NCBI GenBank assembly: GCA_900095095.1
Contig: FMBT01000307.1
Span: 124,001 to 188,000, forward strand
Length of the DNA stretch: 64,000 bases
Origin: Fragilariopsis cylindrus CCMP1102
Lineage: Eukaryota; Bacillariophyta; Bacillariophyceae; Bacillariales; Bacillariaceae
Direction: 5' to 3'
In this document: positions 27,839-49,327 of the stretch, one piece after another
Layout: every line of letters starts with the position of its first letter
Numbering within the stretch: position 1 is the first letter of the stretch
The notes under the pieces: model-generated
The model's database searches: none
Seen by the model: only the letters and a program-made list of their open reading frames with translations
Told to the model about the DNA's origin: nothing
Made by a program: the position numbers and the translations under genes

Positions 27839-28577
27839 AAGCTGTGGTAGTTTGTTAGTTAGTTTTAGTAGTGTATTCGCTTTAAAAAAAAGTTTCCATT
27901 GTTCGTTGTGTACCTTTTTGTTATCATACCGATATTGCTACCACATGAGAAAATATACTACAATTTTTATGCTACAAAAAAAATACTACTAGTGCGATTT
28001 GGAGACGAGAGAAGATATGGGAGAATTAACTTACATTAGTTTGTTGTGAATGCACCACTGAATACTTGTATCGTATTTCTTTTGAAGTTCTGTTACTAGT
28101 AGCGCAGGATCATCGATAACAATTATTATTAGGGACAATAACGCTAGATATTTAAATACAACAGGTAGTTTGATCTTTTTAATCAAGAAGTCCTTGTTGC
28201 ACTTACAGTATTGTATTACTATATAGTACTTTCGTAGTAGACTGACTAGACAGAATAAATGAACTGCATTCTGCCGAATTCTGAATAGTTGGTGGTCAAT
28301 ATTATACTGTAGTTGTGAAAAGGAAGAAGAAGGTGAAGAGCAAACTATGTAAACCATCACGATGTAATGTTACAGGGGGAAAATCGAATGTTTGTAACAT
28401 AATCCTCAACGACGTCAAAAACTACTCCAGAAATTGAAGAGACGGTATTAAGGGTACACATCAGCATCATTCACCTCGAGACTTACAAGATTGAATATGA
28501 CAATATGCGCTTGATGATTCATCATTCGTGATTCCATTAGATTGCATATATGAAAATGGGGATAGGGGCGTCACTTA
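27839..28577. other. Intergenic region without a supported gene
   Basis: 739 bp after mL41. It contains only short open frames on both strands without similarity. It ends at the TTA flank of the inverted-repeat element. Confidence 0.4.
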
Positions 28578-29575
28578 GGGCCGTTATACTCGTGCGAAAA
28601 TCAGTGTACTTTTTCATGTACTTATGACTAAAAAAAAAGTACATCGATCGAAATGCCAGGTACATGAAATAACCTACCCAAATATGGGTGGAGGTTTTTT
28701 CATGTACTTTTTTTTTTTGCACTGTCTTTTTGGTCTGTCCTGCCGTATGGGTCCCCATCCTTTTTAATTTTTTCATCTCCATTAACAATCTTGTTTTTTT
28801 TACATGTACTAGTACGGTATTCCTATCCATACAACAACAACAGATCAATCAATTGAATTAAAATAAACCATGGTAATTTAATGTGAGGAGAATAATGAAG
28901 ATGAGGATCCACCCAGCGGCATGGAGGTGCGGCTACTATTTATTTAAATAAGTTGATTCTACTAAGACACACATGATCGGATTTTTCGAAAAAAACGCGT
29001 CCTACATACCCGTTGGTAATGGGTCCTCTCTTAATGTAACAATAACAATAAAAATTAACGCATTGACTAATAGAACAGTAATAGAGACATCTGTATTAGC
29101 ACTTTGTCTATTAATCCATTTTCTAATTTTTAATTCTTCTCTCTTATGCACCTCTTGTGACATTTCGAAATTCGACTCTCTATGTATTCGCACCTCTCTA
29201 GAAAATTCCCCATCCGTTCAAATCAATCCCAACTAATTTTCCCTGATTAACCGTATTCATATCTAAAATCCGACACCTTATTTGTATTGATCCAACCGAT
29301 ACAAGTGGAGCTTCGATTCATTACATTCCCATTTTCATGTTGTTGGAAAATAATTTTCCATTTCAATTCTTACTGCACATAAAAATGATAAAAATTGGGG
29401 GTTGTTAATTTCACAAATAAAATACAAAAGAGGAGCCCAAAACCCCCTTAAAAAGTACAGCGAATTTTTACCCAACTGTTATACTCGCGCAAGGGCAATT
29501 TGATGTACTTTTGGTTAAAATGAGTCATAAGTACACCAAATAAGTACACTGATTTGCGCACGAGCATAACGGCCC
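28578..29575. mobile_element. Non-autonomous DNA transposon with TIRs and TTA target duplication (PIF/Harbinger-type)
   Basis: The ends are inverted repeats: 28578-28608 starting GGGCCGTTATACTCGTGCG and 29545-29575 ending CGAGCATAACGGCCC, about 31 bp with three differences. Weaker inverted similarity continues inward for about 60 bp (GTACTTATGACT; AAAGTACATC). TTA flanks both sides (28575-28577 and 29576-29578). A 3-bp TWA duplication and a GGG-starting terminus are typical of PIF/Harbinger elements. The 998-bp interior has no transposase-sized frame, so it would be mobilised in trans. It includes repeat copy B (29195-29375). Confidence 0.7.
29195..29375 (+). repeat. Dispersed repeat, copy B (related to 1834-2010)
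   Basis: Matches copy A in the same orientation, strongest at GCTTCGATTCATTACATTCCC and in the following 50 bases. It lies in the interior of the TTA-flanked element. Confidence 0.5.
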
Positions 29576-29578
29576 TTA

Positions 29579-29705
29579 CTTGACAGCACTAAAAAAAAAC
29601 GAACATATAAAACCATAAAATAACGAAGCTATTTAGGATTTCATCCTCGTTGCTTGACAGCACTGAAAGAAAACGAACATAGGAAAACATAGAATGACAA
29701 ATTTA
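29579..29705 (+). repeat. Imperfect direct repeat next to the transposon
   Basis: CTTGACAGCACT followed by an A-rich stretch and CGAACATA occurs at 29579 and again at 29653 (74-bp period, about 45 bp each). It starts immediately outside the right TTA of the element. Confidence 0.7.
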
Positions 29706-30199
29706 TTGGCCTCTTCAAAGGCAACACAACACAATACAAGATAAAAGCTAAATCCTGCATGAAACCAAGAAATAAAGACAAAATCATTTTTTCTTCCCCG
29801 CGCAATCGGGGAGTTATGGCGCATTGTCATTTGGTTTCACCAAATCGTCACCAAACCAAAAGTCATTGTCGCGCCAAATATTATTTTGATTCCCGCCAAA
29901 AACCTTTGCCCCCAAACAAATTTCAGCATTCCAATCCAACTGAAATTTTGGAGTGAACCCTCAAATTCCGAACGAAAAAAAAAAATATGAAAAAATTTAA
30001 GGCACGAAACTACCACAAACAGTCAAAATTTGCCTAGTAATACAATTCATTTTTAACCTAACAACCATTCTTCTCATAATTTCTAGATTGTATTTGATAC
30101 TATCCGGTTTTCAGTTTATACTTCCTTCCGCCCTTTACCTGTACCAGGTCCCCATCGTACTACTTACCTCCCATCCACCGATCTCTTTCTTAACCTACC

Positions 30200-33100
30200 A
30201 TGAATCCACCCACCCCCCCACCGATCCTGGATGCATCCTTGAACAATGTTTTAACTACAACCCTTGCCGAGGATATTAGTTACAACTATCGAAAAGCGCC
30301 GGATTTTGATAATTCCGCAGCCACTTCTTCCACTGCTCTCTCCGTCTTGGATTCCTCCACTCTGGCCTCTGATCCCCCTCCACCCATCCGTCTTCGCAAC
30401 ACCGGAGGAGCAGCCGATCATTCCGATCGCGGTCCACTTATTGTTGCTACAATCACTCCAAATCTGCAACGTAGGAGTGCTTCACGTACTACCAAGATAT
30501 CGGTTGCAAAGAAACAGTCGACGAAAAAGAAGCACATTAAGCCTGTTTCTAAGAAACCCAGTGTCCGTACAATGATGCCTTCGTACCAACATTCGCTTAG
30601 TTTACCACCCAGCAAAGCGTTAAAAGCTCTTCAAGATCCATTTTTACACAAAGCTGTTCAGGGCGTGAAAGACGTGTGCCTAAAGAATAACTTTATACTA
30701 TCCGACAAATCCATCAAAAGTTTGGATGATAGCAAAGGGTTATATGTTTCCTACATTAGTTCTACTATCATATCCAAGGCTACGCGCAAATTTACGCAAC
30801 AATTTGTTCTCTCCGGAGGCTCCAACGTAGAGGAGTACAATGATCAAGAGAACTCGGATAAAGCTCTCAAAATATCCAATCATGGTTCGAAACGGTTTGG
30901 TTCATATGTGGGTCCTAGTACAGCTCAAAACTGTGAACGTTACATGAGGCAGTTGTATAATTTTTTGGCCATGATTGGTGACTACCAATCGATGTTGATT
31001 TTACTGGAGTACCCACCCAAAAACCCTCCTCCCATGAATCCTCACTCCATTTTATTGTTCGTGTATCACCGTATGGAGGCTCCAACTACCCCCCTTTGTT
31101 ATGACCACGATCAGTCCAAAACTATTCCCCTGATTGATGTATTTAAAACTCCAATTCTCGCGGAGGGTTCGTGCCGATCCAAAGGGGGTCTTCTTCATTT
31201 GTTCCAGCCAATCAGTATCGTGCACCGATCACATAACTTAAATGCCAAGTATGTTGCGCCATGCCCAGATTGTCGCGAATCCTACCAGTTGCTGATTGAG
31301 GCAGGTAAAGATGCGTCTGATTTTGTTATGTGCAAATTTCATCTATTACAGCCACCTCCACACGGAATTATACATGGCTACGGTGATCCATGTACCTCTG
31401 AGAAAGTAATTCTTGCCAAATTAGCAATGGACAAACTTGAAAAGAAATCCGGTCATGTAGCTACCACACGTGATTGTTTAATGCCCCCCGAAGTCAAGCA
31501 ATTATGGAAGGTACTTTTTGCATCTGGATTTACTAAGGACAATTTCATGCGGTATACCATGCTCATCCAGGCTATCACATTAGGCAATCGAACGTGCGGT
31601 GTTCTGAAGACTACATTGGCCTCCCTCAACAATCATATGGAATTCGGTGTCAATTCCCAGGAGTATGGTATTGATTCCATCGGGATTAGTGTTTTTGAAA
31701 AAAACGAAAAAGAAAAGACTGTTTACAGTATCAAGTTCAAAGATAATCATCCCTGGTTCTGCTTTCTACGACATTTACTTGTATATGTTTGGTGTTTTCG
31801 GATGGAAGGTGGGTTGTACCCCGATCCTGTTTCAGATGGGTATGTTACCGATAAAGATGGTGAGATTGTTCCAGATGGGTATGCTACCGTTAAAGATGGT
31901 CCGCTTGTTCCACATACGGTGGATTTAGCAACCGAATTACTGTATCCCCTCCCAATTTCTTCCCTCTTACACAAGGAAATAAAAAAAGACCCCGTCATCT
32001 TTGTTGCAGGTGAATCGGCCGAAGATCGATCCATTAAAACTTTAATGCTAAAAGAACGATCCGCACGTGATTATAGATCCAAATGCGTCACAGTCTACAA
32101 TTTTATTTACAACGGCATGCTGGACAATAACATTATCAAACTTGAGGATGAAGTTAATCTCGGCAATCACAGCACCCGTAAAAGTACCTATATGTGGAGC
32201 ATTTTGGGTGGTGGTACCTATGCAACGGTGAGGGAGCATGTGCGTCACAGCACCGCCGATTGTGAGGCACTCTATCGGATGGATGCTTGCTCCATTAAGC
32301 GTATGGTCCTCGAGGGGGGTGATTCCCGATTAATCCAAGAAATGGGTGTATATCCATTCGTAGAGTCAATCGTTTCACATACGAATTCAAGTTTCAGGCG
32401 TCTGAACAAATTTAGATCCACTTCAAGAATTCCTAATATGACTTCCATTCAATGTTTGGCAGAATATTTCGTTACTGAAATGCTTCAAGTGAGTCCTACT
32501 CACAATTCTGCCAAAGATCACAACTATCTTCTTAACATTGCCTACAAAAAAAAGTTTGGCAGGGAGCACGTTCCTGATATGACCACCCTTATTAATACTA
32601 CCGATATGTCGTACGAACGACGGATGCAATTTCACCGTCAAAACGCTCTACAAGAAGGCCAGATACGGGAACTGAAAGCAAGTCTACAGGGTCTATCCAT
32701 TGGTAGTGGGACGATACGTCAACCAGGCGCCGGCCCTACCACTATCCCACTTTCTCCATCCCAACAGGGCCGTACGATCCCTTCAAATCATTCCCAATCA
32801 CCCCCGTCACTAACCGTATTTGGGCCTAGCTACGTAATTCATCTGGGCTGCAAAAAAGATCAACCCGTGGACGAATTCAAGTTGTTGGTGTACGATAAGG
32901 AAGAAAAACCAGCCAAAAATTATTTACTCTTCCGTATGGAGCAGAAGCTGTTCGATGCGTTTACAAAGTTGAATGGTCGAGTTCTTGTCTTTGCATGTAA
33001 TCGTCTCATACACGAGCTTGCATCACTTAAAGCCTATACATACAATATAACTGCCGCCGTCCATACTCGAATTGACACGGGTCCATTTTCGGTCCCACCT

Positions 33101-33358
33101 AATCTTTCATTCAGCCCCATCCGTCGTCACCGTCCTCACAAATTTACTCTTCAATACTTTGCTCACTGTCTTTATACATGCCACGATGGCAAGCCAGAGT
33201 TATTTCATCTCTACCACGAAAATTGGACGATTGCTTCTTCACGAGAAAAGCAAATTGCGTTCTGTTTGTGCCAAGCTGAGACTTGCCGTGCAAACAAAGA
33301 TATCATTTTTTCCGATAAACCCAAACACCCCCCCCAAAAAAAAAAACGACGATCTTAA
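30200..33358 (+). CDS. Large tyrosine recombinase-like protein (1052 codons)
   Basis: One intact intronless frame. Residues 1-130 are Pro/Ser/Thr-rich with a Lys-rich nuclear signal-like patch (KKQSTKKKH). A possible zinc site (CPDC...C..H) is near 355-390. The catalytic half resembles a tyrosine recombinase: YTMLIQAITLGNRTCGVLKT gives the first Arg (R464) in its usual helix. A beta-hairpin region with Lys follows. Then NHSTRKS gives H657 and R660, VRHST gives H683 and ALYRMDA the candidate nucleophile Y692. The steps +3, +23, +9 equal those of Cre and XerD. The stretch between R464 and H657 is longer than usual and includes a 13-residue tandem repeat (DGYVTDKDGEIVP). The C-terminal 200 residues are of unknown fold, ending in a KKKRR nuclear signal. 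This should be a DNA strand-exchange enzyme; the subfamily is undetermined. Confidence 0.72.
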   Translation: MNPPTPPPILDASLNNVLTTTLAEDISYNYRKAPDFDNSAATSSTALSVLDSSTLASDPPPPIRLRNTGGAADHSDRGPLIVATITPNLQRRSASRTTKISVAKKQSTKKKHIKPVSKKPSVRTMMPSYQHSLSLPPSKALKALQDPFLHKAVQGVKDVCLKNNFILSDKSIKSLDDSKGLYVSYISSTIISKATRKFTQQFVLSGGSNVEEYNDQENSDKALKISNHGSKRFGSYVGPSTAQNCERYMRQLYNFLAMIGDYQSMLILLEYPPKNPPPMNPHSILLFVYHRMEAPTTPLCYDHDQSKTIPLIDVFKTPILAEGSCRSKGGLLHLFQPISIVHRSHNLNAKYVAPCPDCRESYQLLIEAGKDASDFVMCKFHLLQPPPHGIIHGYGDPCTSEKVILAKLAMDKLEKKSGHVATTRDCLMPPEVKQLWKVLFASGFTKDNFMRYTMLIQAITLGNRTCGVLKTTLASLNNHMEFGVNSQEYGIDSIGISVFEKNEKEKTVYSIKFKDNHPWFCFLRHLLVYVWCFRMEGGLYPDPVSDGYVTDKDGEIVPDGYATVKDGPLVPHTVDLATELLYPLPISSLLHKEIKKDPVIFVAGESAEDRSIKTLMLKERSARDYRSKCVTVYNFIYNGMLDNNIIKLEDEVNLGNHSTRKSTYMWSILGGGTYATVREHVRHSTADCEALYRMDACSIKRMVLEGGDSRLIQEMGVYPFVESIVSHTNSSFRRLNKFRSTSRIPNMTSIQCLAEYFVTEMLQVSPTHNSAKDHNYLLNIAYKKKFGREHVPDMTTLINTTDMSYERRMQFHRQNALQEGQIRELKASLQGLSIGSGTIRQPGAGPTTIPLSPSQQGRTIPSNHSQSPPSLTVFGPSYVIHLGCKKDQPVDEFKLLVYDKEEKPAKNYLLFRMEQKLFDAFTKLNGRVLVFACNRLIHELASLKAYTYNITAAVHTRIDTGPFSVPPNLSFSPIRRHRPHKFTLQYFAHCLYTCHDGKPELFHLYHENWTIASSREKQIAFCLCQAETCRANKDIIFSDKPKHPPQKKKRRS
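31833..31911 (+). repeat. 39-bp in-frame tandem repeat inside the recombinase gene
   Basis: Two adjacent units starting CAGATGGGTATG encode 13 residues each (DGYVTDKDGEIVP / DGYATVKDGPLVP). They lie in the insert between the first catalytic Arg and the HxxR box, away from the expected active site. Confidence 0.8.
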
Positions 33359-33504: not shown

Positions 33505-34131
33505 TTACAGGCACGCATATACTGCTTGCCTCTTTTTTCCGCTTCGTGTTTTTCTTTGCCCCAACTCCTTCGGGTTGAACGCTTGGAAGTCTTGCGATGT
33601 AATCAATTCTGTCAGCATTCTCAATTTTTTGTAGGTTTTTTGTTGTGCTTTTGCAACCCTTTTTTGTTTTTCCCCCTGGTCCACTACTAATTCTAATGCT
33701 GGGTTGCTAATCCCCCTTCTTTTGTTGTTGGACGTAGATACACTTCTAACTGTTTGCTCTCTATTGTTGATGAGCCTTTGGTTATTTCGTTTATTTGTGT
33801 TATCGATAGTTGAAACCGAAATCCCCAAGCCTTGGTCGGTTTTCCGCTTGTCTTGGAAGTGGGTGTGTGATATAATGCCTTCGTAAATTTGTTTATATAG
33901 TTTGCAATAGTTTTTATGTTTGTAAACTCCAGAATATGTTCGAATAAGAGCACCACATAATGAGCAAACAAAGTGCGGGGCTACAGCCATAGCAGGGTGG
34001 AAGTAAAATAGATCTGTTGCTCCACCCATTAATCCCAGGTCTGTTCTGACTATGTGCAATTCCCCATCTAGGATATTTTGTTGTAGATCACAGTCTGTTA
34101 TGGCGACACACCTGGGTCTATTACCATTCAT
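33505..34131 (-). CDS. C2HC zinc-finger-like basic protein of the island
   Basis: From the first ATG (34131) 208 residues; the frame stays open a little further upstream to 34188 without ATG, so an upstream exon is possible. The protein shows a single C-x2-C-x12-H-x3-C site (CSLCGALIRTY...KHKNYC, about residues 67-90), then a basic Asn/Arg/Lys-rich region and a C-terminal Lys-rich helix (KQKRVAKAQQKTYKKLR). No family is recognised. Zinc binding and nucleic-acid binding are plausible from composition only. It converges on the recombinase gene and could be a partner such as a directionality or targeting factor; that is conjecture. Confidence 0.5.
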   Translation of the reverse strand: MNGNRPRCVAITDCDLQQNILDGELHIVRTDLGLMGGATDLFYFHPAMAVAPHFVCSLCGALIRTYSGVYKHKNYCKLYKQIYEGIISHTHFQDKRKTDQGLGISVSTIDNTNKRNNQRLINNREQTVRSVSTSNNKRRGISNPALELVVDQGEKQKRVAKAQQKTYKKLRMLTELITSQDFQAFNPKELGQRKTRSGKKRQAVYACL

Positions 34132-35005
34132 GTTAACTCGATTGTATTTATAATACCCTGCGAACAAAATGATGTTGTGGCAGCACACAATATTACACCT
34201 TATTTTGAATTTGTTCTTTTTAAAAAAAATCCAAGTAACGGTAAATTAAGTGAATAAAGTAACGGTCCATTTTTTAATGATCCGGGTCTTTCTGTTTCTG
34301 TCATGGTTAGTACCGAAATAGTGTCATTTTCTCCTGTCTAAATAAAAAATCTAAATTCCAACGGCAACATTATGGCGCACAAATGTATACTACGACATGC
34401 GTTTTACCTGGGTGGGGCGTTGATTACCTTGGGTGTCGCAGTTATTTGTTAGTAGACCTAGGCGGTCATCCAAGCCGTACCTACTTTTAATTTTTACATA
34501 CTAGATGAAATAAATGTATTTTTGTATTCCAACGGCAAACTATTTTGACTTCATTTACATTGTAACTATTTTGCCCCCTACAGGTCGTGATATTGGTCAG
34601 TCCACACTCGGCGGATAAACACTCAACACGGTCATTGATAACGGAGTACCCACCGGCGAACTCGGAACCTTGCTACGGACTGTCCCTATTCGTGTATACT
34701 GATTGCATAAATCGTGCGGACTCGGTGGATGTACAATACCAATCTTGTGGAGGAGAAAGATTCGGTGGATGACAACTTTGTAGTGTCTAATTTGTAACGG
34801 AGTATCCAACGGAAAACTTGGAACGTTGATGCCGATCGTCACGACTTTGGTTGGTGGTTGTTCTTTTCGTACGTAACATATAAGGAAATGCATGTTGTCA
34901 ATTTTGCGTCGCGTATCACCCAAACAAGAGTATGGTTCTTAACCCTTTCACTCTTGTATTTTTGTGTGTCTCTTTTATCCCATTTAAAACAATTAAACAG
35001 CTACG
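34132..35005. other. Divergent intergenic region in the island with short direct repeats
   Basis: 874 bp between the outward-facing zinc-protein gene and the 357-codon gene. ATTCCAACGGCAA occurs near 34355 and 34526, and a 40-bp imperfect repeat starting TAACGGAGTA occurs at about 34638 and 34796. No gene is supported. Confidence 0.45.
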
Positions 35006-36079
35006 ATGAGTTCCTTTTCCGACCTGGACAAAGTTACCCTCCCCCAAACTGTCAACCAGGAGCAACTCGATGAAATTGGTACTGAAGCTTCCAAGTTGTA
35101 CCAGGGTGCAGCAGGGGATACTTTTGTTTACTTTGATAGGGCCACAAGTTTCTTTATCTTAACCTCGTACTCCAACACCGAGTTAACCTGCGAATTGCAC
35201 CGTTCCAAAAGTATTGATGAACAAAAATTATTGCGTGCGGAGTTATACTATCGGGAGTCGGATTCACCCAAATATCAGCCGCGTGGGGAGTCGGATTCAC
35301 CCAAATATCGGCCGCGTGGCGACAGTAGTACGACCTCCAGTGATTCTTCTTTATGCTTTAGCTTGAAAGGTACATTGGGCTATATGACTCGTAAGCCGAA
35401 AGCTATGCGAACGACCCCACATAAATTACTTGGGACAACCATCCAAATTAAAGGGAACCCTAGCGTGGTGGAAACCACAAAGAAACCACCAGGCAGCACC
35501 ATCGCGATACCGCACCCTGGGTCTCTTCTAGACGTATCTTCCCCCCTCCCCCAGGGTGATGCAATTGTACCAAATAGCGTTGCCAAGTTACCGAACCGCC
35601 CAAATTCAGTATTGGCTGCGGCTTGTGTTGGAGAGACGTCACCTGGAGTTGCTGTAATGTACTCTGCAGCAACTTCTGAATTTGCTGGACCTGAATCTGC
35701 TGCCGCATCGCAACCCGCAAAGAATAAAAAGCGTAAAGTAAATACTGCAATTGATCGAATCCATTTGAGACCACGGTCCGGTCCACAAAAGTGTTGTTTG
35801 CCCCGTGATTACGACTATCTTGATGGGAGAAGATTCGACCAGAAGGCTCTAAAAGATTTTCAAAAGAAACAGAAGTATCTAAAAGATTTGCAAAAGAAAC
35901 AGGAACAGGTTCGAAAGACCGGTGTTCCGGAAAATAGTAATTTAAATGCAGTTGAGGCTGACCAACCCTGGGATCCCGCCGAAGAGCAGGATCGTCTGAT
36001 GATTAGGCAACTTAGAAAGCAGCACGATGATATCGAAAAGAACGGTCACCGGCTAAGAACTGATGAAGACTCGTATTAA
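35006..36079 (+). CDS. Island protein with internal repeats and charged C-terminal helices
   Basis: 357 intact codons from ATG 35006. Residues 1-80 look folded (DTFVYFDRATSFFILTSY), with no family recognised. An 11-residue tandem repeat, ESDSPKYQPRG, occurs twice (33-bp period at 35253 and 35286). The middle is Pro/Ser/Thr-rich and probably disordered. A nuclear-signal-like KNKKRKV follows, then a Lys/Gln-rich coiled-coil-like stretch containing a 10-residue repeat (KDFQKKQKYL, KDLQKKQEQV), and an acidic end. The C-terminal coding stretch is duplicated just after the stop codon. The gene is intact but its function is unknown. Confidence 0.55.
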   Translation: MSSFSDLDKVTLPQTVNQEQLDEIGTEASKLYQGAAGDTFVYFDRATSFFILTSYSNTELTCELHRSKSIDEQKLLRAELYYRESDSPKYQPRGESDSPKYRPRGDSSTTSSDSSLCFSLKGTLGYMTRKPKAMRTTPHKLLGTTIQIKGNPSVVETTKKPPGSTIAIPHPGSLLDVSSPLPQGDAIVPNSVAKLPNRPNSVLAAACVGETSPGVAVMYSAATSEFAGPESAAASQPAKNKKRKVNTAIDRIHLRPRSGPQKCCLPRDYDYLDGRRFDQKALKDFQKKQKYLKDLQKKQEQVRKTGVPENSNLNAVEADQPWDPAEEQDRLMIRQLRKQHDDIEKNGHRLRTDEDSY

Positions 36080-36639: not shown

Positions 36640-39200
36640 TGCACCATGTGTACTTGATTAATGCATTATATGTGGTTTGAATATATTCCCACCCATTCTA
36701 CTAAGCACACACATCTATTTACTGGTTGTGCCAATGGGCTTCATAGCACATTTTCACCCCAACAAAAAGGCAATGGTAAAATTAGAAGTGGTTCCACACA
36801 CTACAACCCAACCCATATGGATGCAATAGCCTCATTCATTCTTGGTTAATTAATTTTATGTGGTTTGAATGTATTCCCACCAAGTTTACTAAGTAAATAC
36901 ATGTATTTATTGGTTTTACCATCCGCTTTTGGTACATTCTTACACAAAAAATCAATGTAATGGTGAAATTGATAGGGATTCCCCCCACTAGAACCCAACC
37001 CACATGGATGAACTACTATCCTGTATACATTGTCAATCCATTCTACGTGAATTGGATGTAACACAACCAACTCTACTAAGTAAATCCGTGTATTTTTACT
37101 TGTTGTACCAGCAGATGTTAGTAGCACAGATGTTAGTAGCACATTTCACCAAAAAAGAATGCAACAGTAGTATTGAAAGTGATTTCACATATTACAACCC
37201 AACCCCCATGAATGATATAGTATCCTGTCTACATGTTTAACCAATTCTACGTGGGTGGAATGCATTCCAACCCATTGAGCATATAAACATCTATACTAGT
37301 CAAATTCAGGTATTTACTGGTTGTTCCACCAGATTTTAGCACATGTTACCCAAAAATAAATGTAATTGTATAATTAAAATTGGTTTCCCATACTAGAATC
37401 CAACCCACATGTATGAAATAGCATCATGTATACATGTTTAATCCATTTTATGTGGGTTTGATGTGTTCCAAACAACTCTACTGAGTACTTACATGCATAT
37501 ACTGGTTGTTCCACAAGATTTTAGCACATTTTCACCAAAAATATATGTAATTGTATAATTGAAACTGGTTTCCCATACCACAATCCAACCCACATGGATG
37601 AAATAGCATCATGTATACATGTTTAATCCATTTTATGTGGGTTTGATGTGTTCCAAACAACTCTACTGAGTACTTACATGCATATACTGGTTGTTCCACA
37701 AGATTTTAGCACATTTTCACCAAAAATATATGTAATTGTATAATTGAAACTGGTTTCCCATACCACAATCCAACCCACATGGATGAAATAGCATCATGTA
37801 TACATGTTTAATCAATTCTATGAGGTTTGAATGTATTTCTGCCAACTCTACTGAGTACATACATGCATATACTGGTTGTACCACTAGATTACTAGATTTT
37901 AGCACATTTTCACCAAAAATATATGTAATTGTATAATTGAAACTGGTTTCCCATACCACAATCCAACCCACATGGATGAAATAGCATCATGTATACATGT
38001 TTAATCCATTCTATTAGGTTTGAATGTATTTCTGCCAACTCTACTGAGTACATACATGCATATACTGGTTGTACCACACTAGATTACTAGATTTTAGCAC
38101 ATTTTCACCAAAAATATATGTAATTGTATAATTGAAACTGGTTTCCCATACCACAATCCAACCCACATGGATGAAATAGCATCATGTATACATGTTTAAT
38201 CCATTCTATGAGGTTTGAATGTATTTCTGCCAACTCTACTGAGTACATACATGCATATACTGGTTGTACCACACTAGATTACTAGATTTTAGCACATTTT
38301 CACCAAAAATATATGTAATTGTATAATTGAAACTGGTTTCCCATACCACAATCCAACCCACATGGATGATGTATACATGTTTAATCCATTCTATTAGGTT
38401 TGAATGTATTTCTGCCAACTCTACTGAGTACATACATGCATATACTTGGTTGTACCACTAGATTACTAGATTTTAGCACATTTTCACCAAAAATATATGT
38501 AATTGTATAATTGAAACTGGTTTCCCATACCACAATCCAACCCACATGGATGAAATAGCATCATGTATACATGTTTAATCCATTCTATGAGGTTTGAATG
38601 TATTTCTGCCAACTCTACTGAGTACATAAACATCTACACTAAGTAACTTAATGTATTTATTAGTTTCACCAGATGATTATTAGTACATTTCAACAAAAAT
38701 TAATGTAACAGTACAATTGAAACTGGTTTCACATACTACAACCCAACCCACATGGATGAAAAAGCATGTTGTACAAAAGTTTAATCAATTCTATTAGGTT
38801 TGAATGTACTTCTACCAACTCTTCTGAGTACATACTTGCATTTACTGGTTGTACCAGCAGATTTTAGCTCATTCTACCCAAAAATGAATGTAACAGTATT
38901 ATTGAACCTAGTTTTACAGACTAGAACCTAACCCACATGGATGAAATAGCATCATGTGCAAATGTTTAATCAATTCCATAAAGTTGGAATGATTTCCAAT
39001 GGACTCCACGAACTCACTAAATTTATTTACCTGTTTTACTAGCTAAATGAAACCCATTGTTACACAAAAATGGATCAAATGGTATGATTGAAAGTAATTG
39101 CACACACTCGAAGCAATCTCACCCGGAGGAAATAGCAACATGTATACATCTTTAATACATTTTTTGTTTGTTTGATTGTATTTCAACCAACTTTACTAAG
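36640..39200 (+). repeat. Satellite array, about 13 units of 185-205 bp
   Basis: The landmark CCAACCCACATGGATGAAAT, or a close variant, recurs near 36811, 36998, 37202, 37403, 37588, 37773, 37966, 38161, 38357, 38540, 38747 and 38931, with a decayed copy near 39118. Units also share TGTACCA...TTTTAGCACATTTTCACC and ATGTAATTGTATAATTG. Units from about 37400 to 38620 are nearly identical, whereas both edges are strongly diverged, as expected for an array homogenised by unequal exchange in its centre. No protein is coded; the short open frames here repeat with the unit. The period is near a nucleosome repeat length. Confidence 0.9.
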
Positions 39201-39338
39201 TAAAACAAATTCCGGTGTTGTTAGTAACTTTATATTTTATATATATTAGGTATATTATGTCTTCGAGTTGCTGTATCCTTTGCAGTATCGAGCTTCAGTT
39301 CCCTTTGGGTTCAGATTACCGATCGTAAACCTTCTATT
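39201..39338. other. Gap between the satellite and the acidic-protein gene
   Basis: Short AT-rich stretch, including a TATATATT run near 39236-39248; it probably holds the 3' end of the leftward acidic-protein gene. Confidence 0.4.
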
Positions 39339-40814
39339 TTATTCTTTGACATCATCGGATTCATCTGAAGAGCTGGATGAGTCCGAAGAGCTGGAGGAGT
39401 CCGAAGAGCTGGAGGAGTCCGAAGAGCTGGAGGAGTCAGATGATCCAGAATCGGTGGTACCCTCCTTACCCTCCTCACGGTCCTCACTTTTGGTTTCCTC
39501 ATCCGCGTTCTCCTCATCATCGCCACCTTCAACAATCTCATTTTCATCGGTGGTACCCTCCTTATCCTCGTCGTCATCGTCACTTTCGGTTTCCTCATCC
39601 TCAGGCTTCAGGTTATTACTCTCTTCAATGTTACCCTCTTCGTCATCCATGACATCGTTGTTGTCGTCCTTATCGTTCATGTTACCCTCTTCGTCATCCA
39701 TGACATCCTTGTTGTTGTCCTTTTCATTCTCCTCATCGCCGCCATCCTCAACAATCTCATCTCCATCGGTGGTACCCTGCTTATCCTCGTCGTCATCCTC
39801 ATCGTCACCATTCTCAACAATCTCATCTCCATCCTGAACATTGAGTTGTTGTGCTACTGGATTAGCCTGGTACCGTTCGACCTGGCTTTCGAAACTTTCA
39901 ACTGATGTACTCAACGCACGGAGAGATGCCCTAAACGTGTCCACATCTGATGACCTAACCGACTCCACATCTGATGCTACAATCTGTTGAAAGATAGCAG
40001 AGTAGTTGTTGAATAAGGTCGGTCCTTGGGTGATTACAGATTGAAAGCGGCAAATTTTCGTTGATCGAGTCGTTACGAGTGATTGCGTGGCTTCAGCAGT
40101 ACGTTTCAACGAATCTGTTGCCCCCTCTTGATCTTCTTCTTGTACTTCCTCCTCCTTTGCCTCATCTTCATCATCATCTTCCTCATCGTCCTCGTCGTCA
40201 TCATCATCATCTTCTACTTCTCCCTCATTGCCCTCATCTCCATCTTCATCGTCCTCATCGTCCTCGTCGTCATCATCATCATCATTATCATCGTTATCAT
40301 CGTTATCATCATCGTCATCATCATCGTCATCACCATCGTCATCATCATCGTCATCGTCATCGTCATCATCACCATCATCACACAGGGTTCTTCGAAAACC
40401 TTCATGCAAGCTGGTCATCTTGTAGGTTTCCTTGTTTTTGGGATCAGTTCCAAGTACAAGGAAATCGTGGTCCACCAAAAAATCAAGGGTCGTCTTTAAT
40501 ACAGGGTTTTGCCCCCGCGAGGGGATATTGCCGCCCCGGGCACGTTCGCTGTTTCCAAACCATCCCGGATTCTTGAACGCATCCAATAGAAGGTGGCATG
40601 CAACTTTGGAACAAGACCTGTCATGATCAATCTTACTTTCTGCTTTTTTATATTGCCACCAGTGAAGATAGCCTTTTTCATTTAGTTTCTCGCTGATTTG
40701 GGCTGCATCAACGATATAATTGGCGGGAAGTTCCGCAACAAACTCAGGGGTCCATGTAGTTTCGATATACTCTATGCATTTCTCTTCACGTTGGTTACGA
40801 CGGACGTTCGCCAT
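39339..40814 (-). CDS. Acidic repeat protein with an N-terminal winged-helix-like domain
   Basis: 491 intact codons from ATG 40814. Residues 1-150 appear folded (YIETTWTPEFVAELPANYIV; TTLDFLVDHDFLVLG followed by TYKMTS), resembling the helix-plus-wing of a winged helix, but no family is recognised. The rest is extremely acidic: long Asp and Asp/Glu runs (about 155-240), a polar helical segment (about 245-330: TQGPTLFNNYSAIFQQIV), then repeats of TTDGDEIVE and a Ser-Ser-Asp-Ser tail. Acidic tracts of this kind suit histone or basic-protein binding, so a chromatin-related role is a guess. All Asp runs use GAT/GAC and are potential slippage sites, yet the frame is intact. Confidence 0.55.
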   Translation of the reverse strand: MANVRRNQREEKCIEYIETTWTPEFVAELPANYIVDAAQISEKLNEKGYLHWWQYKKAESKIDHDRSCSKVACHLLLDAFKNPGWFGNSERARGGNIPSRGQNPVLKTTLDFLVDHDFLVLGTDPKNKETYKMTSLHEGFRRTLCDDGDDDDDDDDDDDDGDDDDDDDDDNDDNDDNDDDDDDEDDEDDEDGDEGNEGEVEDDDDDDEDDEEDDDEDEAKEEEVQEEDQEGATDSLKRTAEATQSLVTTRSTKICRFQSVITQGPTLFNNYSAIFQQIVASDVESVRSSDVDTFRASLRALSTSVESFESQVERYQANPVAQQLNVQDGDEIVENGDDEDDDEDKQGTTDGDEIVEDGGDEENEKDNNKDVMDDEEGNMNDKDDNNDVMDDEEGNIEESNNLKPEDEETESDDDDEDKEGTTDENEIVEGGDDEENADEETKSEDREEGKEGTTDSGSSDSSSSSDSSSSSDSSSSSDSSSSSDESDDVKE

Positions 40815-42025: not shown

Positions 42026-45000
42026 TTAAAAGGAAAAGGCAAGGCTCGATTTTTTTTGAATCAACGGAAAGGCAGCCATAATACGATCGGCTGCATCATC
42101 AACCAACAATTCACCCAAGGAGGGAAACTTCGAAGTGGTGGTCCAAAGTGAGTTGGCGAAAATCTGGTTGGCAATGTCGGAAGGTGCTACGTACATCCCA
42201 CCTACCAATTCCCATTCATTGCACAAGTAATTGGAATCCAGTGGAAGCAATTCTCCATCTGGAAACGAAATTGACAGTGAGGAGTGTCCCTGCACAAGCA
42301 GGACCTCATCCACTCTATGGACATCCACAAAATGGGAATCGGAACCATTTGGAGAAAGTATACGGTAGACCTTGCACATTACATTCTCCAGTGTAGAATA
42401 CGTCCACCATTCACGAATACGATGCTCAAAGAAGGTTTGAATTGTAGTCATGGTGCATCGACCCGGTTCCTTACTCCACTTGAGATCAGGGTAGCGTCCT
42501 TGGAAGAATTCCAACACACGACCACTGATGGGAGCATAATCACGAATCCAATCAGGAACACAACCGAAATACGACAAAACAGCAAACTGATGTTTTGCTT
42601 GCAGCGGACCAAAACCATATGTTGTATCCTGATAAAGTTTGGAGCAGGACTCGTATACACCACTAATCGAGGCCAAATTAGGTTTCGCAGGAGCAAGTAT
42701 CCAGATCCCCAGTATCACAGCGAGTTTGTTCCGCGTCCTTTCAATCCAGTCAGATTCATTGGGGATATCCGATTCTGTCTCTAATTTCTTGTAGGTGTTG
42801 TATCGAAATAGGGCCAGTTTCTTCCTCTTCCCACCCGGTGAAGTGTTACGGGCATAGAAGCGATCGCGTAAACGAAGCATATTCAATGCGATAAATCGAC
42901 CAATCAACCAAGGATCACCTTCAAATTGAATTCTCCCGCGAACAAGGTCATCCACCGCCAGGTCGTAGAAATAAGCACAGTTCGGGACAACGTCCATACA
43001 GATTATAGAACTGATGATCATTGGCAGTGTAAATCGAAACTTGTCAACAATACGGCACGTAGAATGCAGAAATAAAGCATGAAAACCTAACCGAGGTGCA
43101 AAAATTAGATCAACAATATAATAGGAGGGAGGAACAGGAATGAAGGAGGGGTGAGTACAAAAGATAGCTTTGTCGTTGGCAAAAAAAGAACGTAGATGCA
43201 AACATACCTAGGGGGTTCAGGTTACAAGGAACAGAAACATGATGCCTGTCAATAACAATGCCTTTCTTCGTGTATACCGCTAACGTTTCCGGATCCATAT
43301 GCTTGCGATCGTCAGGAAACTGCGAGTAGACTTGGAGCAATTCATCTAGCATGGGAGCATTTTTCGCCTTGCGAAGAATTGCGTCAGAAATACTTTTGCG
43401 AAAATAACCAGTTGCACCCACACGTACACCTTCCACCCATTTCGAAGCACCGACAACCAACGACAATTGATCATCATCAGTGCAATCAGGATTGTTTACA
43501 TCTCTGTGGGAAGCACATGGGTTTTTGGGGGAGGACCCGTGAATAGTTGCTCCCTCAATCTCATTCTTCTCAGCAATTGCCTCAGCGTATTCCTTACGCG
43601 CTGGATCAGCTTCGTAACATGCCCAGGGGGGGAGGTCCGGCAACTGAAAAATAGACGACAGACCCACAAATATATGCTGTGAAAAGGCAGAAGTGGTTCC
43701 TTTTAATAGGTTCGGAAAGGAGGAACCGGATTCATCACGACGCATACATGTATTGGTCGCGTACCCATACGACACTCGTGTATGATCCTTTTGCCTGGTA
43801 CATCCGTGAACATCCTTTGGATTTACTGTAGATACATGTTTGTGCATGGTGTCAAAATCCAATGAATCAATTACAGATGCCACAGATTGTTTTTCATTCA
43901 ACACCATACAAAATGAATTTTTATGGTTGCGATGATTGCGGTAGAAATGAACTGGAACATCTGGAGCTAACGTCGTACGAAGAAACGAACCCAACTTTTC
44001 TTGACGAACTTGTAGATGGTCGATGGTGGTAAGTTGTTTGAAAGCATACACTTGACCTGCTTGGCGATCTTCAATAACATGAGCCTCATCTTCTGTATGA
44101 GCCACCAGGTAAAGACCTTTGGGACAGTTCGCAGAACTCCAGAAAGCAGCATCAGCACGGTGAACTTCTGGAACTCCATCGTCAAAATCATCATCATCAG
44201 AACCGGACTCTACTACAACCACTGACTCGTCGTCGTATAAATCTTCATCTAGGTAATCATCCTCGGACCCATCCATGCTTGAATTGTTGTTGTAATCCGA
44301 GTCGGCCGTGGATTCATTAGAGCGTGCAACAGCACCACCACCAACACGAGCAGCACCTGCAACGGGAACAAGGGAAATGAAACGAGACTGAGCCTTCAGT
44401 GTTGGGCGGCGACGAGAGGAGGTAAAATCAACGATTTCACCGTCCTCGGTACTACATTCAGTATCACCACCAGTCGAATCACCCGATGAAACATCCTCCG
44501 AATTACTCGAAGAATCTTCTGGAAAATCATCCGATGTAGGTCCAGATAGTGGTGAAGATTTACGGCGACTTGCACCATGGACTGTACTTGCGGTAGATGA
44601 ACGGCGGCGAGCAGAAGTAGGTCCAGATAGTGGTGGAGATTTACGGCGACTGGAACCCAGGACTGTACTTGCGGTAGATGTACGGCGGCGAATGGAAGTA
44701 GGAACAGATAGTGGTGGAGATTTACGGCGACTGGTACCAAGGACCGTACTTGCGGTAGATGAACGGCGGCGAGCAGAAGTAGGAACAGATGGTGGTGGAG
44801 ATTTACGGTGACTGGTACCATGGACTGTACTTGCGGTAGATGTGCGGCGAATGGAAGTAGGAACAGATAATGGTGGAGATTTACGGTGACTGGAACCAAG
44901 GACTGTACTTGCGGTAGATATACAGCGGCGAATGAAAGTAGGACCAGATAGTGGCGGAGATTTACGGTGACTGGTACCATGGACTGTACTTGCGGTAGAT

Positions 45001-46232
45001 ATACAGCGGCGAATGGAAGTAGGACCAGATAGTGGCGGAGATTTACGGTGACTGGTACCATGGACTGTACTTGCGGTAGATGCGGTAGATGTACGGCGAG
45101 CAGAAGCAGGTGGCTGAATTGGGGAGTTTTTGCGGGAAGATGAACCAGACAAATTACATGTAAAATCACCAGCAAAATCACCAGCAAAATCACCGGCAAA
45201 ATCACCAGCAAAATCGCTAGCAAAATCGCCGGACAAATCACATGAAAAATCACCGGTCGAACCATCGGAAAAAGCATCAACTGCATCGTCAACGTCATCG
45301 TCATCCTCGCTGTCACTGCTATCATATGGCAATCTTTCTTGCAAGCTGGGCATGGATGCATTATCATCATCGTCATCATCGTCATCATCATCGTCATCAT
45401 GATCAAAATCATTGAAACGTTCATCATTGTTGCGACTGATTGTAGGATAGTCTGCTATACCGAGTTTACGCACCGTACGTCTGGAGGTAGCAGAAGAAAG
45501 TGGGGGTGATTTACGGTTAGCACGGCGAGCAGTAGCAAGTAGCTGAGCTGGTTGAGATTTACGGCGGGTAAAATCAAAGTCTTGATTTGTGGTAGATCTA
45601 CGGCGAGCAGCAGCAGGTGAATTGACTGGTGGAAGGGTGCGGCGAGCAACACCATGGTCTTGAGTTGAGGTGGAAATAGGAGAACCAAGATAAGATTCAC
45701 CAATTTGGTGGAATGGTGGTAACGAATCAATAAGGTCTTGTCTGGGTAGGTGACGGGTGCGGCGGGCTGGATGCAGTTCCGGTGAGGAAGTAAAAATTGA
45801 ATTGGATGAGATTGAGGACCCGGCATATGACGTATCGTAGAGTGACATATCATTGTTCTGTTCATCACGGCGTTCAACGGTGGGTTGGATATTGCAATGC
45901 TGGTACAACAGTAAATCAGGATTGTTGACAGAGTTAGAATCAATCGGAATACGGGCATGTTTGATGTCTCGGTGGCGACGACTGGAAATAGGTGGTTGGT
46001 GATGATGGTGATGGTGAGTACGGCGGTAATGAGGAGTAGCGGAGGGAGGGGTAGTAGGAGGTAACATGGCATGGTCAAGGTGATACCGAGTATCGTGGCG
46101 CAATTCTGGGGCAGTCGAATCCGAAGTAGGCATCCCCTTCGAAGAAGGAGCGGTACTTCGACGTTGACGACCCAGAGATTGGGGCCGAGATCTTGATCTT
46201 GGCTTAAAGTGCTTGGGTTGTTTCCTTAACAT
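42026..46232 (-). CDS. Two-exon Ser/Arg-rich repeat protein of unknown function (about 1361 residues)
   Basis: Exons 46232-43208 and 43086-42026 join in phase (CTAG|GTATGT ... GTTAG|GTTTT), giving NLNPL-GFHALF across the junction; ATG 46232 (MLRKQPKHFK) is the first in frame. The first 380 residues are basic, Ser/Pro/His-rich and disordered. Asp runs, GDFA tetrapeptide repeats and seven copies of a 27-28-residue unit (STASTVHGTSHRKSPPLSGP) follow. A more ordinary, probably folded region begins around residue 720 (AAFWSSANCPKGLYLVAHTE) and runs through exon 2 (WLIGRFIALNMLRLRDRFY; VPDWIRDYAPISG). No domain is recognised. The SPP and RRxS sites in each unit suggest phosphorylation. The gene is intact despite repeats, so it is probably expressed. 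Function unknown. Confidence 0.6.
44535..45095 (-). repeat. Seven-copy 81-84-bp coding tandem repeat
   Basis: Each unit contains GATTTACGGCGACT/GATTTACGGTGACT on the + strand and encodes STASTV.G.S.RKSPPLS.PTS.RR. All units keep the reading frame, differing by one optional codon (RR or RRR), evidence of selection on the protein. Confidence 0.85.
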
Positions 46233-48564: not shown

Positions 48565-48800
48565 AGCAGTTCAATTAGGTGCATTTTCTCTTCGTGTAGA
48601 AGAAATGAAAATCTTAGTGCTATTTCAAAAAGTTTTAATTAGGGGAATTTTCGATTCGTCTAATAGAACAGAATTTCTTCGTGCTGTTTCAAAAAGATTT
48701 AATTAGGGGCATTTTCATTGCGTGTAATAGAAACGTAAATCTTAGTGCTATTTCAAACTGATTTACTTAGGGGCATTTTCGTTTCGTGATTAAATTAAGT
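48565..48800 (+). repeat. Tandem repeat, about 64-bp period, nearly four copies
   Basis: The landmark AATTAGGGGCATTTTC, or a variant, recurs at about 48573, 48637, 48701 and 48764, with ATCTTAGTGCTATTTCAAA between. It is non-coding and lies between the island and the host TcdA gene. Confidence 0.8.
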
Positions 48801-49327
48801 CAATAATACTTTTGGGCCAGCAAACTAAGTTTTGGTGAGCATTTTGGTCGGGAAAACCGATCTGGCCAAATACTTCGTGTTAATTATACTAACTAATTAC
48901 TCTCCGACAGAAATTCAAAGTATGAAAACATTGTAGTACTATAATCCATAAATATTGATCACAATGAATGATATGGCCCTTGTTAAATTATAAATGTGTC
49001 AATAGATTTAATCTTCAATACTGCTAGCTATTAGTGTTCTTCTTTAGTATAAGAGTTGCCGTAATTACTTTGTATAGCGAGCAATCAAGCTGAAGAGAGA
49101 AAATATCAGAGCAGCGAGTATACAGTATTCAGTATGTTCGTCTGGCCGTCCAACCATTTCACGCGCTTCATCGATGTTGATAAAAAAAATCTCTTCTGCA
49201 TTTCTGCAAATCATTGTAAATTTGAACGATGATGGGCGTTTGATTATCTATGATTGTGTTGAAGACAAGCTAATAATTGTTGATAGTATCGGCCGTTCAT
49301 ATCTGATCCACTCACATCACTGCAATC
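48801..49327. promoter_or_regulatory. Upstream region of the TcdA-like gene
   Basis: AT-rich DNA without a gene; it should hold the promoter of the following host gene. Any right border of the island is expected somewhere between the 64-bp repeats and here, but no terminal repeat could be recognised. Confidence 0.35.

Follow-up and report, generated by a model that had tools for sequence, protein, structure and literature searches.

The window analyzed here, a stretch of 64,000 nucleotides from the diatom Fragilariopsis cylindrus (C299:124001-188000), contains a gene that very probably encodes a tyrosine recombinase. The catalytic motif, its spacing, its conservation in a paralogue and one weak profile match of that paralogue all point to this assignment. 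Judged from its sequence, the protein is likely to be a known type of enzyme, with chemistry already known, from an unrecognized family that lies beyond the models searched. The gene probably serves a multi-gene DNA element, which extends from left of position 30200 to ~48850. What is new is a convergent, spliced partner gene for a protein of 1361 residues, found at five loci with a differing gene opposite: a recombinase of the window type at two loci, a probable CryptonS-like recombinase at one (C89), and a 1223-residue protein of another kind at two. This arrangement suggests exchange.

The putative recombinase gene and its paralogue

The reading frame is intact from the ATG at 30200 to the stop at 33358 (1052 codons, without internal stop), and has the following features:

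30200-33358, forward strand: putative tyrosine recombinase gene (1052 aa), readable without an intron
31262-31342, forward strand: zinc-like CxxC..CxxH, residues 355-381
31589-31591, forward strand: R464, candidate first catalytic arginine, kept in C83
31739-31741, forward strand: K514, candidate catalytic lysine (putative assignment), kept in C83
32168-32275, forward strand: box H657-x-x-R660..H683..Y692, residues 657-692
33167-33286, forward strand: C-terminal Cx3CH..CxCx4C, conserved, residues 990-1029

The original prediction had placed R464, H657, R660, H683 and Y692, with spacing +3, +23 and +9, in this frame, together with an N-terminal zinc-like site, and we find all of these. The protein carries the tyrosine recombinase hallmark R..HxxR..H/W..Y at canonical spacing. 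Among 40000 shuffles of the window protein, the exact box (HxxR+23H+9Y) occurred in 116, and a relaxed box (HxxR, then H/W/K at 18-32 residues, then Tyr 8-10 further) in 10956. Because the relaxed box is frequent in shuffled sequences, we regard the bare motif as moderate evidence, suggestive and not decisive.

Stronger support comes from the conservation of the catalytic residues in a paralogue. When the host genome (67.9 Mb, 818 contigs) was searched with the window protein, three candidates appeared, which all matched: the protein itself and two stretches of a single gene on contig C83. The C83 gene is an intact frame of 1606 aa, and the two proteins are 31-34% identical (BLASTP, 292/936 residues, 31%; refined alignment, 296/876). 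R464, K514, H657, R660, H683 and Y692 are all identical in the alignment, and the C83 box (H1231, R1234, H1257, Y1266) again has the spacing +3, +23, +9. The zinc-like motif of the C83 protein is located at 940-965; just the two N-terminal cysteines of CxxC..CxxH align with the window protein, with C378 and H381 out of line. Over the N- and C-terminal zinc-like parts together, six cysteines and one histidine match. Identity between the genes at the successive codon positions is 412/876 (0.470), 493/876 (0.563) and 278/876 (0.317), a pattern as would be expected of two protein-coding genes long under constraint, and dS is saturated. With the C83 protein as query only two further matches appeared, both weak (C356:142508-143083, E 0.01; C234:205-672, E 0.05), and these stretches are possible further relatives of the recombinase.

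A fragment of the C83 protein matched phrog_216 (integrase) in the PHROGs library, over exactly the catalytic box and in the right register, as its sole PHROG match. The same box was matched with 90 aa (E 0.0036), 347 aa (E 0.03) and 907 aa (E 0.1) of the protein. None of 10 shuffles of the 90 aa matched an integrase, and one matched another family (function unknown, E 0.31). For the window protein and its fragments, Pfam, PHROGs and NCBIfam gave no recombinase match. Pfam-A, the most general library among those used, includes the DUF3435 and DUF3504 models, and the catalytic fragments matched no recombinase family in it at E up to 10. The original prediction of an active-looking recombinase of a Crypton- or Starship-captain-like type therefore holds in part: the evidence above is best read as a tyrosine recombinase whose catalytic set is intact, and the Crypton or Starship-captain type is not borne out by the Pfam-A scan. 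Weak matches in the profile scans were unrelated (Nop14, 0.69; SIP, 0.22; speE, 0.13).

Searched by sequence, the PDB gave no chains for the recombinase profile, and fragments matched unrelated chains (E 1.2-1.4 and 0.31). Two AlphaFold models (936 aa and 322 aa, from 2 sequences each) had mean pLDDT values of 29.0 and 35.5, which makes them unusable for fold or pocket; Foldseek on the 322-aa model, itself of pLDDT 35.5, gave six matches (E 2.5 to 9.9), none of them a recombinase. Pattern searches for the recombinase returned 113 stretches in viral contigs and 69 in the collection of genome contigs, of which none was confirmed, and tblastn against phage records gave no match. Within the host genome, PF00589 recognizes recombinases at ten places (nine above the cut-off), none on C299 or C83. 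One of this type (PF00589 E 3.4e-6) has HxxR, W at +23 and Tyr 8 further, and hhalign between the window family and a host recombinase recognized by PF00589 was insignificant. A literature search, with most subscription papers and all preprints outside its reach, found no description of the recombinase family or of the partner gene.

The probable element around the putative recombinase gene

To the right of the recombinase gene, the putative element comprises the following features:

33505-34188, reverse strand: zinc-finger-like small ORF, convergent with the recombinase gene, matched at C89 (33% over 60 aa)
35006-36079, forward strand: 357-aa ORF, weakly matched (24%) at C89, where the order is the same
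36641-39202: tandem array, unit ~185 bp, also in the C89 element (~73% identical)
39339-40814, reverse strand: 491-aa ORF, acidic towards the C terminus and matched in its N-terminal part (48%) at C89
42026-43086, reverse strand: partner gene exon 2; spliced protein of 1361 aa without stop
43087-43207, reverse strand: predicted partner gene intron, 121 nt, at the same place in the C83, C89 and C649 copies
43208-46232, reverse strand: predicted partner gene exon 1, with HxDxxN-like motif and low-complexity N-terminal part
48570-48850: right end zone with 64-bp repeats, after which similarity to C83 and C89 is lost (BLAST ends at 48788; ~48850 is read from the alignment)

The partner gene appears as two ORFs on the reverse strand, of 331 aa (42026-43021) and 1040 aa (43110-46232). 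We consider these to be exons of one gene, because matching splice sites occur at this position in C83, C89 and C649 as well, and the 1361-aa product is free of stops. Exon 2 had five candidates in the host genome, all of which matched: C299 itself, C89 (95%), C83 (93%), and C311 and C649 (46%). All four partner copies aligned retain the motif H[RK]D[VG]NNP. Two parts of the gene, compared among the window, C83 and C89 copies, gave dS values of 0.136-0.291 and omega values of 0.076-0.248. Judged by sequence, the partner copies at three loci share a recent ancestor, and those at two further loci are distant relatives. On the strength of the HxDxxN-like motif we considered an iron-dependent dioxygenase, and set it aside for lack of Pfam support. 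A search of viral contigs with the partner exon returned one stretch, which was not confirmed.

A left gene convergent with the partner is common to all five partner loci, and the recombinase is convergent with it in both copies found (C299 and C83). The C89 locus has the order of the window: left gene (+), zinc-finger ORF (-), 290-aa ORF (+), tandem array, 608-aa ORF (-) and partner (-). Apart from the zinc-finger ORF, array and partner, with the identities given above, the 290-aa ORF matches the 357-aa ORF over 327 columns, and the 608-aa ORF matches the 491-aa ORF over 142 columns. At C83, a zinc-finger remnant lies beside the recombinase, and the middle part (357-aa ORF, array and 491-aa ORF) is absent.

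On the right, the likeness of the window, C83 and C89 ends at a shared point, at ~48.79-48.85 kb in the window. The left end of the window element was not found by comparison with C83 and C89, and at none of the three loci did terminal or inverted repeats join the left and right sides at plausible places. The right flank is single copy except for eight matches of at most 63 bp. No empty site or haplotype copy of the window flanks was found in the host genome, where the left-flank search was dominated by a repeat at 28574-29580, with scores for 40 of 340 candidates. This repeat of ~1 kb (28577-29576), which adjoins the recombinase gene on the left, has 38-nt inverted arms (92% complementary) with TTA on both sides and many copies or fragments in the genome, and to our eye looks like a non-autonomous element of Harbinger type. 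Upstream of both recombinase genes, at 29800-29920 and at the corresponding position of C83, motifs resembling TTCCCGCC and GGCGCC can be seen by eye. We find these motifs reminiscent of E2F sites.

On balance, we take the window gene to be the recombinase of the surrounding element. By analogy with known enzymes, Tyr692 would attack one strand to form a 3'-phosphotyrosine bond, assisted by R464, R660, H657, H683 and, probably, K514, and DNA binding would fall to the zinc-like parts at the N and C termini. Such an enzyme would excise the element as a circle and rejoin it elsewhere. We infer the fold, the chemistry, the circle intermediate and the movement of the window element by the window enzyme.

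Alternatively, the recombinase may be a separate Crypton-like element beside an unrelated multi-gene element, in a neighborhood that was inherited or arose by chance. Partner exon 2 is 93% identical between the window and C83, compared with 31-34% for the recombinases, and therefore recombinase and partner do not have one shared recent history; moreover, no DNA ends enclosing both genes were found. However, the two recombinase copies both have the same convergent order with the partner, and C89, with a different left gene, retains the order of zinc-finger ORF, 357-aa ORF, array, 491-aa ORF and partner. We consider two separate elements rather unlikely.

It is improbable that the protein is not an active recombinase, but a DNA-binding or host protein that retains or mimics the motif. 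Such a protein could lack a match to recombinase models, as the window protein does, and passages in the accessible text of PMC3212892 describe a precedent in the DUF3504 proteins, which are recombinase-derived without the catalytic set. However, the same passages state that DUF3504 proteins lack most of the catalytic residues, whereas all five are kept in the C83 paralogue.

Differing left genes at the partner loci

The recombinase of C83 and the left gene of C89 are unlike each other. Nevertheless, the DNA of the two loci is alike (70 and 82% identical) to within 47 nt of the C83 recombinase gene's end and to within 104 nt of the end of C89's left gene. The argument for an exchange of recombinases rests chiefly on this likeness, which runs almost to the ends of two left genes that differ.

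We speculate that an accessory gene set, marked by the partner, is conserved in a mobile lineage in which the moving enzyme was replaced repeatedly: by an unrecognized tyrosine recombinase (C299 and C83), by a CryptonS-like one (C89), and earlier by another chemistry with inverted ends (C311 and C649). In this reading, which we put forward tentatively and hold to be somewhat less probable than its negation, the window recombinase represents a new eukaryotic family. The exchange of recombinases around a conserved backbone is the boldest of our readings; it draws on three related loci only, and is possible but not favored. The exchange of the moving enzyme is known for phage integrases. If the accessory genes are young and shared within one genome, and the recombinase is not, enzyme exchange in eukaryotic elements becomes directly testable. 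Likewise, if a eukaryotic family of tyrosine recombinases has been missed by sequence models, such elements are under-counted in algal genomes.

The C89 left gene is an open frame of 732 residues with the stretches RGAES, HSAKK, RVGW, DYI and GRTLSG. We read these stretches as CryptonS-like, and take the gene to be a probable recombinase of that type. Pfam gave nothing of recombinase kind for it, and hhalign with the window family lent no support either (probability 0.2). The expected second catalytic Arg reads Lys, and the Tyr is located 11, not 9, residues after the Trp, so the protein may be inactive.

That C299, C83 and C89 derive from a single large insertion or virus, now decayed, with a different part kept in each, would fit the absence from C83 of the region of the 357-aa ORF, array and 491-aa ORF present in the other two, but is quite improbable, since in all three the left gene is the immediate neighbor of the zinc-finger gene, the likeness of C83 and C89 extends so close to the ends of two unlike left genes, and the ORFs scanned include no viral family.

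In the distant copies, C311 and C649, the left gene encodes a protein of 1223 aa. It is intact in C649, and in C311 it is matched in four pieces, the first ~19 kb from the others. The protein has no Pfam match and no hhalign link to the window family. The largest blocks shared by the two loci show 92 and 97% identity, and 1849 bp upstream of the 1223-aa gene are identical. On the right, both copies break off abruptly at one identical base, and the sequences beyond it differ. C333 carries the C649 flank in a form that lacks the element (99.3% identity over 577 bp, with no likeness from the element end onward), which corresponds to an empty site; its far side was on no other contig. The 20 bp CACAGCAAACGAAGAACATG recur inverted at the other end of the C311 element (~C311:104005), and the flanks are compatible with a 2-bp duplication (TC), for which the chance is one in sixteen. 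From the inverted ends, the sharp right ends and the empty site we conclude that relatives of the window element have moved. The enzyme moving the C311/C649 element is probably not a tyrosine recombinase.

We had considered the C649 1223-aa protein as a third tyrosine recombinase on account of an HSARKG stretch, and rejected it: hhalign lends no support (probability 0.5), the relaxed motif is frequent by chance, and the element has 20-bp inverted ends. To us, its sequence is reminiscent of DDE transposases of the CACTA kind. The C311 element, with its 20-bp inverted ends, spans ~104005 to 139824, and ~19 kb of other sequence, which resembles a retroelement in the part examined, lies within the 1223-aa gene. 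A 453-aa ORF on C311 (5219-6580 of the extracted segment) resembles by eye the 608-aa ORF of C89 (6168-7994 of its segment), so that the accessory set may go back further than the likeness of the partner genes indicates.

Comparison with known systems

The CryptonS-like member among the loci described here would be the C89 left gene, by its motif, and not the window gene. Crypton was compared through Pfam models, not through a Crypton sequence itself, and the Pfam-A scan of the catalytic fragments gave no relation to Crypton/DUF3504. In the accessible text of Kojima and Jurka (2011; PMC3212892), CryptonS elements are known from oomycetes and one diatom, Phaeodactylum, and have terminal direct repeats of 5 or 6 bp, many of them TATGG. 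The window element resembles CryptonS, as described there, in having a putative tyrosine recombinase without reverse transcriptase and in the second gene that some CryptonS elements carry. In contrast, the window protein has no profile match, and direct repeats are described for CryptonS while the left end of the window element has not been located.

In outline, the window element is similar to the Starships of fungi, which have a DUF3435 captain: a large recombinase would lie at one end, with several other genes in the same element. The window protein differs in giving no Pfam-A match of DUF3435 kind, and only the right end of the window element is located. The host is also different, and, as far as the accessible descriptions of Starships go, cargo and ends differ or are not comparable.

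Polinton-like viruses with a tyrosine recombinase are, in the accessible parts of two sources, multi-gene elements in protists (PMC12747079, PMC12220804), to which the window element is similar in this respect. In contrast to these viruses, the six neighboring or paralogous proteins scanned gave no capsid, packaging or polymerase family in Pfam.

The host PF00589 family, probably of DIRS type, shares with the window protein HxxR, a residue 23 further (W in the host family) and then Tyr. However, Pfam recognizes this family (E 3.4e-6) and not the window protein, which has no PF00589 match, and no reverse transcriptase or RNase H family was found by Pfam among the neighboring ORFs of the window element scanned, whereas both are found in the same element in DIRS/Ngaro. 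On C60 (1-1401 of the extracted segment) and at other PF00589 places, a multi-copy recombinase is accompanied by an overlapping frame like the end of an RNase H. We take this family to be a DIRS-type retrotransposon, which it probably is.
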